64,000 bases of DNA, taken from the NCBI RefSeq assembly GCF_014050225.1, contig NZ_JACFXV010000065.1, positions 62,001-126,000 of the forward strand, given 5' to 3'. The stretch is from Stappia albiluteola. GTDB lineage: Bacteria; Pseudomonadota; Alphaproteobacteria; Rhizobiales; Stappiaceae. Position numbers and translations under genes: made by a program. This document shows positions 53,391 through 58,176 of the stretch, one piece after another. The notes under the pieces were generated by a model. It was not told the origin of the DNA. It worked only from the letters and a program-made list of their open reading frames with translations, and made no database searches. Positions within the stretch are counted from its first letter, which is position 1, and every line of letters starts with the position of its first letter.

Positions 53391-54869
53391 TTACCTGACC
53401 AGAATGTTCCGGAACTGCCAGGGGTCGCTCTCGTCGATATCCTCGGCGAAGAGACCGGGGCGGTTCTCCAGCGGCGTCCAGTCGGTGTAATAGCCCTTCA
53501 CCGGGCCGAGATAGGGCTTCTGCACCTCAAGGCAGCGCCGGTAATCTATCTCGTCGGCTTCCACGATGCCGGCTTGCGGGTTCTCCAGCGCCCAGACCAT
53601 GCCGGCGAGCACGGCGGAACTCACCTGCAGGCCTGTCGCGTTCTGATAGGGCGCAAGCTCGCGTGCTTCCTCGATCGAAAGCTGCGATCCGTACCAGTAG
53701 GCATTTTTCTTGTGGCCGTAGAGCAGGACGCCGAGTTCGTCGATACCGTCCTCGATCTCGTCCTCATGCAGCACGTGGTGCTTGGGCTGCACCTTGCCGG
53801 CAGCGCCGAAGAGTTCGTGCAGCGACAGCACCGCGTCATTGGCCGGGTGATAGGCATAGTGGCAGGTCGGCCGGTAGATCACCTTGCCGTCTTCCTCGAC
53901 CGAATAGTAGTCGGCGATCGAAATCGACTCGTTATGGGTCACTAGGAAGCCGTATTGCGCGCCCGGCGTCGGGCACCAGGTGCGCACCCGGGTATTGGCG
54001 CCCGGCTGCTCCAGATAGATCGCTGCCTTGCAGCCCTTCTTCTGCTTGCGGGCGTTCTTCGGCATCCACTTCTCGTGGGTGCCCCAGCCCAGTTCCGCCG
54101 GTTGCATGCCTTCCGAGAGGAAACCTTCCACCGACCAGGTGTTCCAGAAAACGCCCATCGGCTTCGGGTGCTTGGTGCGCTGCGTATCGCGCTCGGCGAT
54201 ATGCACGCCCTTCACGCCAAGCTTCTTCATGAGCCTGGCCCACTGCTTGCGGCTCTTTGGCTCCTCGATTTCAAGGCCCGTATCGCGCGCGATGTCGACC
54301 AGCGCCTGCTTCACGAACCAGGAGACCATGCCCGGATTGGCGCCGCAGCAGGAGACGGCCGTCGTCCCGCCGGGGTTCTTGCGCTTTTCCTTCCGCACCG
54401 GTTCGCGCAGGGCATAGTTGGTACGGTCCGCGTTGCTGGCGCTCGTGTCGAAATAGAAGCCGAGCCAGGGCTCCACCACGGTGTCGATATAGAGCACGCC
54501 CAGTTCGCGGCAGAGCTTCATCAGGTCCAGGGATCCCGTGTCGACCGAAAGGTTGACGCAAAAGCCCTGCCCCTCGCCTTCCGTCAGCAGCGGCGTCAGC
54601 ACCTTGCGATAGTTGTCGCGGGTAATCGCGGTCTTTTCAAAACGGTAGCCGCGCTCGTCGGCCAGCCCTCTGTCTTCGTCATTCGGGTCGATGATGGTGA
54701 CGCGCGACCGGTCGAAATTGAAATGGCGTTCGATCAGCGGCAACGTGCCCTTGCCGATGGACCCGAAGCCGATCATCACGATCGGGCCGGTAATCGTGCC
54801 GTGGACAGGATAGTCCTTGCCCCCGGCCTTGGCAGACGCCTCTGCGCTCTTGCTGGTCGCGTCGTTCAT
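53391..54869 (-). CDS. hss: Homospermidine synthase
   Basis: A 492-residue enzyme that condenses putrescine (or putrescine with spermidine) to homospermidine using NAD. The Rossmann start VMIGFGSIGKGTLPLIERH and later ANPGMVSWFVKQAL, FWNTWSVEGFLSEGMQPAEL and TCHYAYHPANDAV are characteristic. AAGGA precedes the ATG. The putrescine source is encoded next door by a type III decarboxylase. A hairpin (54910-54930) separates it from the GNAT gene. Confidence 0.96.
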   Translation of the reverse strand: MNDATSKSAEASAKAGGKDYPVHGTITGPIVMIGFGSIGKGTLPLIERHFNFDRSRVTIIDPNDEDRGLADERGYRFEKTAITRDNYRKVLTPLLTEGEGQGFCVNLSVDTGSLDLMKLCRELGVLYIDTVVEPWLGFYFDTSASNADRTNYALREPVRKEKRKNPGGTTAVSCCGANPGMVSWFVKQALVDIARDTGLEIEEPKSRKQWARLMKKLGVKGVHIAERDTQRTKHPKPMGVFWNTWSVEGFLSEGMQPAELGWGTHEKWMPKNARKQKKGCKAAIYLEQPGANTRVRTWCPTPGAQYGFLVTHNESISIADYYSVEEDGKVIYRPTCHYAYHPANDAVLSLHELFGAAGKVQPKHHVLHEDEIEDGIDELGVLLYGHKKNAYWYGSQLSIEEARELAPYQNATGLQVSSAVLAGMVWALENPQAGIVEADEIDYRRCLEVQKPYLGPVKGYYTDWTPLENRPGLFAEDIDESDPWQFRNILVR

Positions 54870-54976: not shown

Positions 54977-55579
54977 TCAGCGGGCGGGCGGCCAGGGTTT
55001 CATTGCGATCTGCCCTTCGGCTTGGGTGAACGGATCGGCCGCCATACGGCCGGTGAGCGAGGAAATGCGGCCTGTCGCGGCGAGGCAGCCGCGCGCACCG
55101 GCAAGCGCGCCCTGAGAAAGTTCCAGACCGAGAAAGCGGTGCCGCTCCACAGGCCCCGGCATGTCGAGCCCTTCGGTGAGCTCGGCCGAAAAGCCGAACC
55201 GTTCGTAATAGGGAGCATCGCCCACGAGAATGACGGCGCCATGACCGGCAATCGCCGCCCGGTTCAGCGCCCAGCGCATCAGCCGGCCGCCGAGACCCGT
55301 GCCGCGATAGCTGGCATCGACGGCAAGCGGCCCGAGCAGCAGCGCAGGCCGGCCGTCACCGGTGGCAACGTTCCACAGCCGCACGGTGCCGGCGAGGTTA
55401 CCCTCGCCGTCCGCATCCTCGCTGACATCGAGCGCGCTGAGCGCGATCGCCGGCGCGCGTCCCTCGCGCAGCCGCTCGGAGGTTTTTTCGAAACGCGCCA
55501 GACCGAAGGCACGGTCGAGCAGCGCCTCGCGGGCACTCCCTTCCCAGGGCGCCTCGTCGCGAATGTCGAACATCGGCAT
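54977..55579 (-). CDS. GNAT family N-acetyltransferase
   Basis: A 200-residue GNAT protein. LLLGPLAVDASYRGTGLGGR holds the acetyl-CoA loop, followed by ILVGDAPYYERFGFS. The second half is longer than usual and ends WPPAR. It lies between the decarboxylase and hss, seven bases after the decarboxylase stop, so a polyamine or amino-acid substrate is possible, but there is no direct evidence. ATGs at 55579 and 55573 are both possible. Confidence 0.88.
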   Translation of the reverse strand: MPMFDIRDEAPWEGSAREALLDRAFGLARFEKTSERLREGRAPAIALSALDVSEDADGEGNLAGTVRLWNVATGDGRPALLLGPLAVDASYRGTGLGGRLMRWALNRAAIAGHGAVILVGDAPYYERFGFSAELTEGLDMPGPVERHRFLGLELSQGALAGARGCLAATGRISSLTGRMAADPFTQAEGQIAMKPWPPAR

Positions 55580-55585
55580 CGGCCT

Positions 55586-56716
55586 TCAGATCACGTAGGA
55601 AGCCAGGGGCGAGAAGCCGTTGAACGCCACCGACGAATAAGTCGTCGTATAGGCGCCACAGGCCTCGATCAGCACCTTGTCGCCGATCGCCAGCGACACG
55701 GGCAGCTCGTAGGGTGTCTTCTCGTAGAGCACGTCGACGCTGTCGCAGGTCGGGCCGGCCAGCACGCAGGGCGTCTTGCGGTCGCTGTCCTTGTCCGTGA
55801 GGATCGGATAGCGGATCGCCTCGTCCATGGTCTCGGCCAGGCCGTTGAACTTGCCGATATCGAGATAGACCCAGCGCACCTCGTCGTCGTCGGACTTGCG
55901 GGAGATCAGCACCACCTCGGCCTCGATGAGGCCGGCATTGCCGACCATGCCGCGCCCCGGCTCGATGATCGTCTCGGGCAGCCGGTTGCCGAAGTGACGG
56001 GTCAGCGAGCGGAAGATCGCCTCGCCATAGGCCGGCACACCGGGCATTTCCTTGAGGTACTTCGCCGGGAAGCCGCCACCCATGTTGACCATGGAAAGCT
56101 GGATGCCGCGCTCGGCCATGTCATGGAAGATCGCGGCGGCCGAACCGAGCGCACTGTCCCACGCATCCACATTGCCCTGCTGGGAGCCGACGTGGAAGGA
56201 AATGCCGTAGGCGGCGAGGCCGAGGCGATGTGCGAGCTCCAGCACGCGCGGCGCCATTTCGGGCGCGCAGCCGAACTTGCGCGACAGCGGCCAGTCCGCG
56301 CCGGCGCCGTCGCACAGGATGCGGCAGAACACGCGCGAACCGGGCGCCGAACGGGCGATCTTCTCCACTTCGGCTTCGCAATCCACCGCGAAGAGGCGGA
56401 CGCCGAGCTCGAACGCGCGCGCAATGTCGCGCTCCTTCTTGATCGTGTTGCCGAAGGAGATGCGGTCGGCACCGGCACCCGTTGCCAGCACCATCTCGAT
56501 CTCCGCCACCGAGGCGCAGTCGAAGGACGAGCCCAGCTCGGCCAGGAGGTTGAGGATCTCCGGCGCGGGATTGGCCTTCACCGCGTAGAAGACGCGGGTG
56601 TCGGGCAGCGAATGCGCGAAGGCATGATAGTTGTCGCGCACGACGTCGAGGTCGACCACGACACAGGGACCATCTTCACGTCGGTTGCGAAGGAATTCGC
56701 GGATACGCTCAGTCAT
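55586..56716 (-). CDS. Type III PLP decarboxylase (ornithine/lysine)
   Basis: A 376-residue alanine-racemase-fold decarboxylase that probably makes putrescine from ornithine. The PLP lysine is Lys47 in YAVKANP; GPTCDSVDV supplies the Cys and Asp that take part in the active site at the dimer interface; MVNMGGGFPAKY and EPGRGMVGNAG are family boxes. Lysine may also be used, as with rhizobial homologues. The GNAT gene follows closely, then hss. GGGAG precedes the ATG by eight bases. A long structured leader lies upstream. Confidence 0.92.
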   Translation of the reverse strand: MTERIREFLRNRREDGPCVVVDLDVVRDNYHAFAHSLPDTRVFYAVKANPAPEILNLLAELGSSFDCASVAEIEMVLATGAGADRISFGNTIKKERDIARAFELGVRLFAVDCEAEVEKIARSAPGSRVFCRILCDGAGADWPLSRKFGCAPEMAPRVLELAHRLGLAAYGISFHVGSQQGNVDAWDSALGSAAAIFHDMAERGIQLSMVNMGGGFPAKYLKEMPGVPAYGEAIFRSLTRHFGNRLPETIIEPGRGMVGNAGLIEAEVVLISRKSDDDEVRWVYLDIGKFNGLAETMDEAIRYPILTDKDSDRKTPCVLAGPTCDSVDVLYEKTPYELPVSLAIGDKVLIEACGAYTTTYSSVAFNGFSPLASYVI

Positions 56717-56970
56717 CGGGGCAACTCCCGTTCCGGTTCAAGACGCAGGGCCGCATAGCCGGAATCGAGACCTCCCCCGTTTTGGAGACGGCGGCTCGCT
56801 TGCGGCGATGCGAACGGGAACACGCGCCGCCACGACGGACGACAGGCTTTCCCGGGAATAATGCCTTGGATTGGAACAGGGAGGATCCCCGCACCGCACG
56901 GCCGGCAATGATGTAACAAGTGCCTCTTCAGTGACCCCGGAGGTTGGAAACCCCGGCAGAGACCAAAAAA
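56717..56970 (-). ncRNA. Candidate structured leader RNA of the decarboxylase gene
   Basis: About 250 bases before the decarboxylase start, rich in pairing. CCGG-a-GGTT/AACC-CCGG (56937-56956) is a compact hairpin; TTCCGG/CCGGAA (56731-56736, 56759-56764) closes a stem beside the ribosome site; GGGAGGATCCCC (56879-56890 region) is nearly self-complementary. Alphaproteobacterial ornithine decarboxylase genes are known to carry the speF leader motif, and this region has the right place and orientation, but I could not check its consensus. Confidence 0.45.
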
Positions 56971-56989
56971 GCCCTCTTACGTCGTTGCT

Positions 56990-57118
56990 TTAAGCCGTCC
57001 TGTTTTGCCGCCACCCCGAAACAGTCCGAAGGGGTTGCTGGCGGCTGCCACAGAATTCTGGACGACCACGGGCACGTGCGAATTTGGGCAACGCCGTCTT
57101 CGCGCAAAACGCCTTCAT
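56990..57118 (-). CDS. Possible 42-codon upstream ORF in the decarboxylase leader
   Basis: An ATG at 57118 opens a 42-codon frame (MKAFCAKTALPKFARARGRP, then EFCGSRQQPLRTVSGWRQNR) ending in TAA at 56990, about 270 bases before the decarboxylase start. It is basic, with eight Arg in 42 residues. There is no good ribosome site (GGAAGGGGCGG lies about 14 bases upstream), so translation is doubtful. A leader peptide controlling ornithine decarboxylase is known for gammaproteobacterial speF, so the idea is worth noting. Confidence 0.25.
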   Translation of the reverse strand: MKAFCAKTALPKFARARGRPEFCGSRQQPLRTVSGWRQNRTA

Positions 57119-57174
57119 GATCAAGAAAAAATCCGCCCCTTCCCGAATTTTTTGATGGGCACTTGCCAAACCAT

Positions 57175-57210
57175 TGAAAAAACAAAGGGCGGCACCGCCG
57201 CGCCGCCCTT
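57175..57210 (-). terminator. Rho-independent terminator of EF-hand gene
   Basis: AAGGGCGGC (57185-57193) and GCCGCCCTT (57202-57210) form a perfect 9-bp stem with an eight-base loop. On the minus strand the tail is TGTTTTTTC, 34 bases after the EF-hand stop. Confidence 0.85.
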
Positions 57211-57243
57211 GAGTAAGGTATGTTTTGGGAAACTTTCGCGACG

Positions 57244-58176
57244 TTAGTTGCTTGATTCGCCATCGTCGCCGCGCTGCATCCAGCGAGGTCCGCGCCGCCC
57301 TTCGCCGCGCATCCCCTCGCCATGCCGCGGACCGTCCTGGATCGACAATGCACCGTCGCCGTCGCGGTCCATTCGCTTGACCAGGTTGGCGAAGAGGCGA
57401 TCGACCTCTGCACGCGTAACTTTGAGATCGCCGTCCCGGTCAAACCGCTGGAAGGCCCGCACGATGCGGCCATCAGATTCCACCAGCCAGATGTCCTGGA
57501 ATTCCGCCAGCGTAACCGCATTGTCGCCATCCTTGTCCGCCTTGGCGAACAGCTCGGCGCGGCCGCTGGTAAATTCCTCGCGGCTCACATCGCCGTCGTC
57601 GTCCGTGTCGAAGAGTTCCAGCAGCATGCCGCCGCCACGGCCGTAGCCGCGGCGTCCGCCCCTGTCGTCACTCTCGATGCTGTCGTCATCGTCCCTGTCA
57701 AGGCGCGCGAACTGCCTCTCGCCGCGCCGAGCGAACTCGGCCTCGGTGACCTTGCCGTCGCCGTCGCGGTCGAGGCGCTGGAACGAGCGTACGCGCCGCT
57801 CGGCAAAGGTGTCGGCGAAAGCCGGCTTGAATTCCTCAAGCGTCACGCCGCCATCGCCATTCGTATCCGCCTTGCCGAATCGCTCCGTCACGACGGCATC
57901 GATTTCCGCCTGCGTAACCTTGCCGTCCTTGTCGGTATCGAAGGTGTCCATGAAGAAGATGGCCCCGCCCATCATGCCGCGATGATGACCGCCGCCGTGG
58001 TGACGGCCCTCTCCCCTGCGTCCTTCCCATCGACCATGGTGCTCTCCGCGCTCGCCGTGGCGCCAGCCGTGACCTTCGCCGCGTCCCTCGCCACGATCGG
58101 CGAATGCAGGCAAGGCGACCGATCCGGCAAGAACGATTGCAAGAGCGGACAGTGTGGCGACCTTCAAGGGTTTCAT
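57244..58176 (-). CDS. Exported protein with eight EF-hand loops
   Basis: A 310-residue protein with a signal peptide (cleavage near AFA-DR), then a Gly/Arg/His-rich part (about 28-68, with GHGWRHGERGEHHGRW) and eight EF-hand loops starting at residues 80, 104, 136, 160, 190, 214, 246 and 270. Loops come in pairs 24 residues apart, giving four EF-hand pairs. Seven end with Glu or Asp at position 12. It should bind calcium in the periplasm or outside. The ATG at 58176 has AAGGAG. It diverges from the two-component genes. Confidence 0.9.
   Translation of the reverse strand: MKPLKVATLSALAIVLAGSVALPAFADRGEGRGEGHGWRHGERGEHHGRWEGRRGEGRHHGGGHHRGMMGGAIFFMDTFDTDKDGKVTQAEIDAVVTERFGKADTNGDGGVTLEEFKPAFADTFAERRVRSFQRLDRDGDGKVTEAEFARRGERQFARLDRDDDDSIESDDRGGRRGYGRGGGMLLELFDTDDDGDVSREEFTSGRAELFAKADKDGDNAVTLAEFQDIWLVESDGRIVRAFQRFDRDGDLKVTRAEVDRLFANLVKRMDRDGDGALSIQDGPRHGEGMRGEGRRGPRWMQRGDDGESSN

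Follow-up and report, generated by a model that had tools for sequence, protein, structure and literature searches.

An ar45–speF leader upstream of a putative ornithine decarboxylase gene, with two candidate competing folds

The RNA leader of a putative ornithine decarboxylase gene on the minus strand of the window (the whole 64,000-nucleotide stretch of Stappia albiluteola DNA analyzed here) belongs to two already described RNA families, ar45 and speF. We read the two as neighbouring halves of one leader and not as two separate elements. We lean slightly towards a scheme in which this region is a single leader for the decarboxylase, a GNAT acetyltransferase and a homospermidine synthase, with an ar45 half and a speF half, two competing folds, and a signal of the polyamine-pathway type. 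What we add to the described families is the predicted competition between the fold of ar45 alone (fold A) and a helix that would connect both halves (helix B); within a partial literature search, no description of their mutual exclusion was found in print. As a riboswitch candidate, speF has stayed an orphan since 2005; ar45 (SmrC45), described in 2007, was still said in 2025 to have an unclear function, as far as the accessible part of that source goes.

Table 1. Positions of the leader elements and neighbouring genes in the window (position 1 is its first nucleotide).
Feature	Position	Strand	Remarks
Homospermidine synthase, third gene	53391–54869	−	PDB homospermidine synthases, 5.1e-244; Pfam saccharopine dehydrogenase domains
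GNAT acetyltransferase, next gene after the decarboxylase	54977–55579	−	Pfam PF13508, 2e-09
Ornithine decarboxylase (putative substrate), 376 aa	55586–56716	−	Pfam PF02784, 3.5e-55
Ribosome-site hairpin, Shine-Dalgarno G-run with C-run just before the ATG	56717–56730	−	51/70 family genomes
speF leader (RF00518)	56785–56958	−	49.7 bits, gathering cut-off 37
Helix B 3' strand, ACUGAAGAGGCACUUGUUACAUCAUUGC	56905–56932	−	core helix, 91.8% of cells paired (50 distinct 26-nt strand pairs)
U6 tract at the ar45 3' end	56965–56970	−	predicted to pair with 56929–56924 in fold B
ar45 RNA (RF02347), 5' half of the leader	56967–57089	−	51.9 bits, gathering cut-off 40
Shared strand, GCAACGACGUAAGAGGGC	56971–56988	−	would serve fold A as 3' strand and helix B as 5' strand
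Arg-rich 42-codon frame, judged no gene	56990–57118	−	start at −29; 7 Arg
Stem GGUCGUCC	57060–57067	−	pairs with 56993–57000; compatible with folds A and B
Fold A second stem, 5' strand	57072–57080	−	predicted to pair within 56980–56988, the strand of helix B
Fold A closing stem, 5' strand GCCC	57086–57089	−	predicted to pair with GGGC 56974–56971
TTG of the −35 box (CTTGATC)	57122–57124	−	kept 35–36 nt upstream of ar45 in 71/71 family genomes
Terminator-like hairpin behind the upstream EF-hand gene	57185–57210	−	11-pair stem and T-run; gene has EF-hand domains

Linkage of the ar45 and speF families

Both RF00518 and RF02347 score above their gathering cut-offs upstream of the decarboxylase gene (COG0019-type, COG itself being unsearched). 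Together with a predicted folding energy of −44.9 kcal/mol over the first ~130 nt of the leader, these two matches bear out the original prediction of a long structured 5' region, and its guess of an alphaproteobacterial speF RNA proved right, the RF00518 covariance model matching the minus strand (Table 1).

Covariance-model searches of 87 genomes of the family found ar45 and speF together in 71 and neither in the remaining 16, 15 of which have merely 29–31%-identical decarboxylase matches. The gap between the two RNAs is 8 nt in 66 family genomes and 7 nt in 5, a homologue of the window decarboxylase lies downstream of the leader in all 71, and the decarboxylase ATG follows the ar45 5' end after 363–446 nt (one genome, G059, has no ATG at the aligned site). 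The sixteenth genome lacking both RNAs, G027, of the leaderless genus, carries a 51%-identical decarboxylase.

The same arrangement extends beyond the family. A sample of 199 genomes of the order, 7 of them from the family, has ar45 in 74 and speF in 86. Outside the family, 64 of 67 ar45 loci are followed by a speF model match 6–12 nt downstream, and the remaining three (G137, G173 and G267) by speF-like sequence as judged by eye; conversely, 13 of the 14 speF-only genomes have, on visual inspection, an upstream stretch resembling ar45, that of G129 having diverged. One speF match below cut-off and without ar45 (G119) has the appearance of a chance match and was set aside. In a class-level sample of 240 genomes (3 already counted), the same nine have both RNAs and 231 have neither. 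That ar45 and speF never occur apart is valid for these samples, given that models and filters can miss matches and that in searches over more than 40 genomes the filters lose weak ones.

A helix predicted to connect both halves

Helix B would pair ar45 GCAACGACG-X-GGGC with speF GGC-Y-UUGC, where X and Y vary; in the window it would span 84 nt (56988–56905) and continue into pairing of the U6 tract. It is well supported by comparison among genomes, 154 of 158 of which could be parsed (G038, G041, G057 and G119 were dropped). Native duplexes have a mean energy of −10.94 kcal/mol versus −8.38 ± 0.28 kcal/mol for partner-swapped ones (0/5000; 57 distinct strand combinations), and with one representative for each of 21 X types the values are −10.50 versus −8.11 ± 0.46 kcal/mol (0/20000 swaps), the native partner ranking tenth or worse in 6 of the 21 types. 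The covariation score is 0.268 versus 0.126 ± 0.013 after shuffling (0/500) and at most 0.120 when the strands are slid against each other. Variable pairs are paired in 119 of 150 cells versus 74.1 ± 6.4 in shuffles (0/10000); the three concerned exchange U-A/G-C/A-U, A-U/U-A and G-C/A-U/C-G, with 5, 10 and 16 of 50 cells unpaired, respectively. Of the five measures, two are no better than in the shuffles, namely pairs with double-sided change (497/500) and further pair types (136/500), and strand shuffles keep shared ancestry in all helix tests. Taken on these terms, clear covariation suggests that helix B joins the ar45 and speF halves.

A possible further pairing, between CGCAC in the 5' strand (57071–57079) and GUGCG/CGUGC of speF (56896–56903), appears in the minimum-free-energy (MFE) structure of 37 of the 61 sequences, out of 65 in the alignment, that have CGCAC; this helix shows no covariation beyond shuffles (paired cells 137/500, score 83/500).

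These data bear on how ar45 has been interpreted in print, namely as an independent sRNA. Under that account, ar45 would be an Hfq-dependent, trans-acting RNA made from a promoter of its own and ending at its own terminator; speF would be a distinct leader that just happens to lie beside it. A separate short transcript is indeed reported in Sinorhizobium (S. meliloti) and Bartonella (B. bacilliformis), SmrC45 co-immunoprecipitates with Hfq in S. meliloti, and in Bartonella ar45 is reported to be expressed independently of speF, the speF transcript being longer than 700 bases, all according to the accessible parts of these publications. Yet ar45 and speF are not clearly apart in any searched genome, several cases being judged by eye, bar the one chance-like match below cut-off; the family gap is only 7–8 nt, and the covariation of helix B would tie both halves together. 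We therefore consider a wholly independent sRNA unlikely, though ar45 may have a dual role.

Fold A and its predicted competition with helix B

Fold A would close the ar45 half on itself. Across an alignment of 65 sequences, one per distinct strand combination, its closing stem is paired in 99.6% of cells; the outer pair is GC in 59 sequences, GU in 3, AU in 2 and a gap in 1, so the change from G-C to A-U is seen in 2 of 65 and may represent one event. The second stem is 99.3% paired and almost invariant, hence uninformative. Because its own stems hardly vary, covariation barely tests fold A. The stem GGUCGUCC, which either fold could contain, is paired in 93.6% of cells and has both-sided changes in 7 of its 8 pairs. 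We accordingly grade the ar45-only closing stem as marginal: plausible, and weakly tested by these comparisons.

Structure prediction places the two folds on RNAs of different length. For 148 of the 154 parsed genomes (six class-level genomes were left out), the MFE structure of the short RNA contains fold A in 145, and that of the longer RNA never contains fold A but contains helix B in 142, leaving 6 with neither. When the window RNA is lengthened by 2-nt steps, fold A is predicted at 119–139 and 149–171 nt, neither fold at 141–147 and 173–183 nt, and helix B from 185 nt. With a shuffled speF tail, the outer stem of fold A survives in 26% of MFE structures (24 chosen genomes × 40), as against 0 of the 24 genomes with the native RNA, which makes the loss of fold A in the native RNA mild evidence for a switch. 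The two folds would exclude each other because both use the strand 56971–56988, and we infer that they may be alternative states in cells.

The sequence of events could be as follows. If only the first ~123 nt are made, the 5' end would pair with GCAACGACG..GGGC beside the U6 tract, giving fold A and a short ar45 RNA. If the polymerase reads on, the same strand would instead pair with the speF half, opening fold A, and helix B, a long stem with bulges, would bury the U-tract. The hairpin at the ribosome site would add translational control, and a polyamine-pathway signal, possibly homospermidine, would tip the balance between A and B. On this scheme ar45 would be the short form of the leader, arising by termination or processing, and speF the form made by read-through. 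Viewed as an attenuator, the leader would combine a supported helix B, a marginal fold A and a candidate terminator at the U6 tract (56965–56970), which a terminator scan did not call as a canonical one. The accessible descriptions of SmrC45 in S. meliloti assign its 3' end to the U-run without mapping it, and published lengths differ (181 versus 148 nt). Helix B cannot be a classical antiterminator, because its 3' strand is made after the U-tract.

A bolder version, which we put forward tentatively and regard as rather unlikely in its full form, holds that ar45 is not a separate gene family. A single bistable leader of the decarboxylase, present throughout the order of the window and in a few more members of its class, would sense homospermidine or another polyamine-pathway signal; ar45 would be its aborted form, and this U-tailed short RNA may act in trans via Hfq.

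The 5' end of the leader and the Arg-rich frame

Upstream of the leader, the TTG of a putative −35 box is conserved. Outside the family, all but one of 67 genomes of the order (66) have a TTG 31–38 nt before ar45; its chance rate is 350 in 3550 random stretches of family loci. A sigma-70 consensus scan of the locus called no promoter; conservation is what the promoter claim rests on. The −10 region of the window (~57101–57096, GAAGAC) is poor and departs from the family consensus CATATAC, and promoter strength may differ accordingly.

Position 57089 is the probable transcription start. In S. meliloti, TAP-RACE mapping identified the 5' end of SmrC45 as primary (PMC2780559, as partly available). 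The tabulated SmrC45 coordinates (3105298–3105445, minus strand; PMC7143759) and the limits of the intergenic region that holds it (3105052–3105637, before SMc02983; PMC2573895), both from partial texts, together place this 5' end ~394 nt before SMc02983. A transcript start downstream of the hairpins is contradicted, by homology to the mapped SmrC45 end only. The 7–8 nt gap and the conserved promoter before ar45 make one start with short and read-through products the simplest reading. Further upstream, the strong hairpin at 57185–57210 should shield the leader from upstream transcription. Matches to suhB, sRNA71 and snoZ168 at 57172–57272 are sub-threshold, overlap the terminator of the EF-hand gene and were rejected.

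The original prediction had also pointed to a 42-codon frame with eight Arg. The frame exists, at 57118–56990, but contains seven. It would be the starting point for leader-peptide control of the kind known from gammaproteobacterial speFL/orf34, where an Arg-rich upstream frame stalls ribosomes on ornithine or arginine, and that precedent (PMC6386406, as partly available) and the Arg content speak for it. Its ATG, however, lies 29 nt before the conserved ar45 5' end, between the −35 TTG and the −10 region, and would fall inside the promoter. Only 17 of 71 family genomes have an ATG, GTG or TTG at this alignment column; the frames measure 4–43 aa, and the corresponding frame in the two other genomes of the window's genus is 20 aa long. 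The Arg-rich part, KFARARGR, is what the conserved RNA AAATTCGCACGTGCCCGTGG spells in one of its reading frames. Among start-codon columns common to at least 50 of the 71 family genomes, none has a length-conserved frame besides the decarboxylase ATG (70/71). The upstream frame is not conserved, and a combined control by peptide and RNA is not supported; judged by this non-conservation, the leader-peptide reading is already refuted, and we assign it almost no likelihood. The rejection agrees with the published lack of significant coding potential in smr genes (PMC2780559, in the part available). A TTG-started 12-codon frame was also tried as an upstream frame and rejected: among the 63 genomes with this start, 36 have its length, and it is preceded by a U-run and not by a Shine-Dalgarno sequence.

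The ribosome site and the downstream genes

The hairpin predicted beside the ribosome site is present in the window, where CGGG (56730–56727) pairs with CCCG (56720–56717) at −6.2 kcal/mol. A hairpin with at least 3 GC pairs, ending at most 8 nt from the ATG, is found in 51 of 70 family genomes (70 of 71, G059 being left out) versus 15.1 ± 3.2 after single-base shuffles, which ignore relatedness. This enrichment suggests a further, translational step.

Such a step could also operate alone. A plain translational riboswitch or protein-binding leader would always hold fold B and act on the ribosome-site hairpin, fold A being an artefact of the Rfam model or a decay product. The evidence for helix B is much stronger than that for fold A, and the enrichment of the ribosome-site hairpin fits this account as well; it would have to accommodate the short ar45 RNA reported in two genera, the primary 5' end mapped in S. 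meliloti (both from partly available sources) and the double-sided change in the fold A closing pair (2/65). We hold it to be improbable, and keep the two-fold leader as the working scheme.

The closest PDB relatives of the decarboxylase (55586–56716) are lysine/ornithine decarboxylases (7.1e-60). All NCBIfam models score below cut-off for it, the nearest being lysA at 173.2 bits versus 297.9, and because none reaches its cut-off the substrate is assigned provisionally. The homospermidine synthase (53391–54869) likewise has no NCBIfam match. The decarboxylase, GNAT acetyltransferase and homospermidine synthase genes probably form one operon. Among eight family genomes inspected, the acetyltransferase gene lies within the downstream stretch in seven and the homospermidine synthase gene in five, one copy of the latter being truncated where the stretch stops. 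In the family genome G059, GCGGGG stands at the aligned ATG site of the decarboxylase, so another start or an error is possible.

Relation to known RNAs and implications

The window leader resembles published speF RNAs (RF00518) in its model match and in its place before an ornithine-decarboxylase-like gene. The Rfam speF model covers only 56958–56785 of the window and includes neither helix B nor the ar45 half. In the available text of Corbino et al. 2005 (PMC1273637), the motif is conserved from a putative transcription start and comprises a stem carrying a large insertion as well as ~80 conserved nucleotides that fold as a long bulged stem-loop; this would match ar45 plus helix B, the stem-loop probably corresponding to helix B (84-nt span here). 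The Agrobacterium speF RNA bound none of ornithine, lysine, meso-diaminopimelate, putrescine, cadaverine or spermidine, and homospermidine is absent from that list of six compounds in the available text of the same paper (PMC1273637). Greenlee et al. 2018 are said to extend the speF motif (PMC7266159, in part available).

The window is alike to ar45/SmrC45/SmelC706 (RF02347) in its model match and in its similar distance before the decarboxylase. Published accounts, as far as available, treat ar45 as an sRNA, whereas its counterpart here is read as the short form of a leader; that smrC45 is at the same time a 5'-UTR element had been pointed out in 2008 (PMC2573895, as partly available).

Two other leaders of ornithine decarboxylase genes are comparable, both known to us from partial texts. 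The alphaproteobacterial odc1 motif (PMC8632094) likewise precedes an ornithine decarboxylase and sequesters the ribosome site, but it has two adjacent UUG starts, the second two nucleotides upstream, and an 11-aa upstream frame, whereas the window leader has an ATG start (70 of 71 genomes at the aligned column) and no conserved upstream frame. speFL/orf34 of Salmonella speF shares the long leader controlling an ornithine decarboxylase and requires a translated, conserved upstream frame (PMC6386406), while at the window's locus 17 of 71 genomes keep the start codon.

If the leader halves do form two states, ligand tests would need the whole RNA from 57089 onward, and searches for trans-targets of ar45 would have to be re-read. 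Homospermidine, as the product of a downstream gene here, would then be the obvious candidate ligand. If the U-tailed short form also acts in trans, a single RNA would signal the pathway state in two ways, once in cis and once in trans. A minor observation concerns the ar45 half itself: its matches range from 57 nt (L140/G153 and L143/G218) to more than 200 nt, which makes the apical part of ar45 look dispensable.
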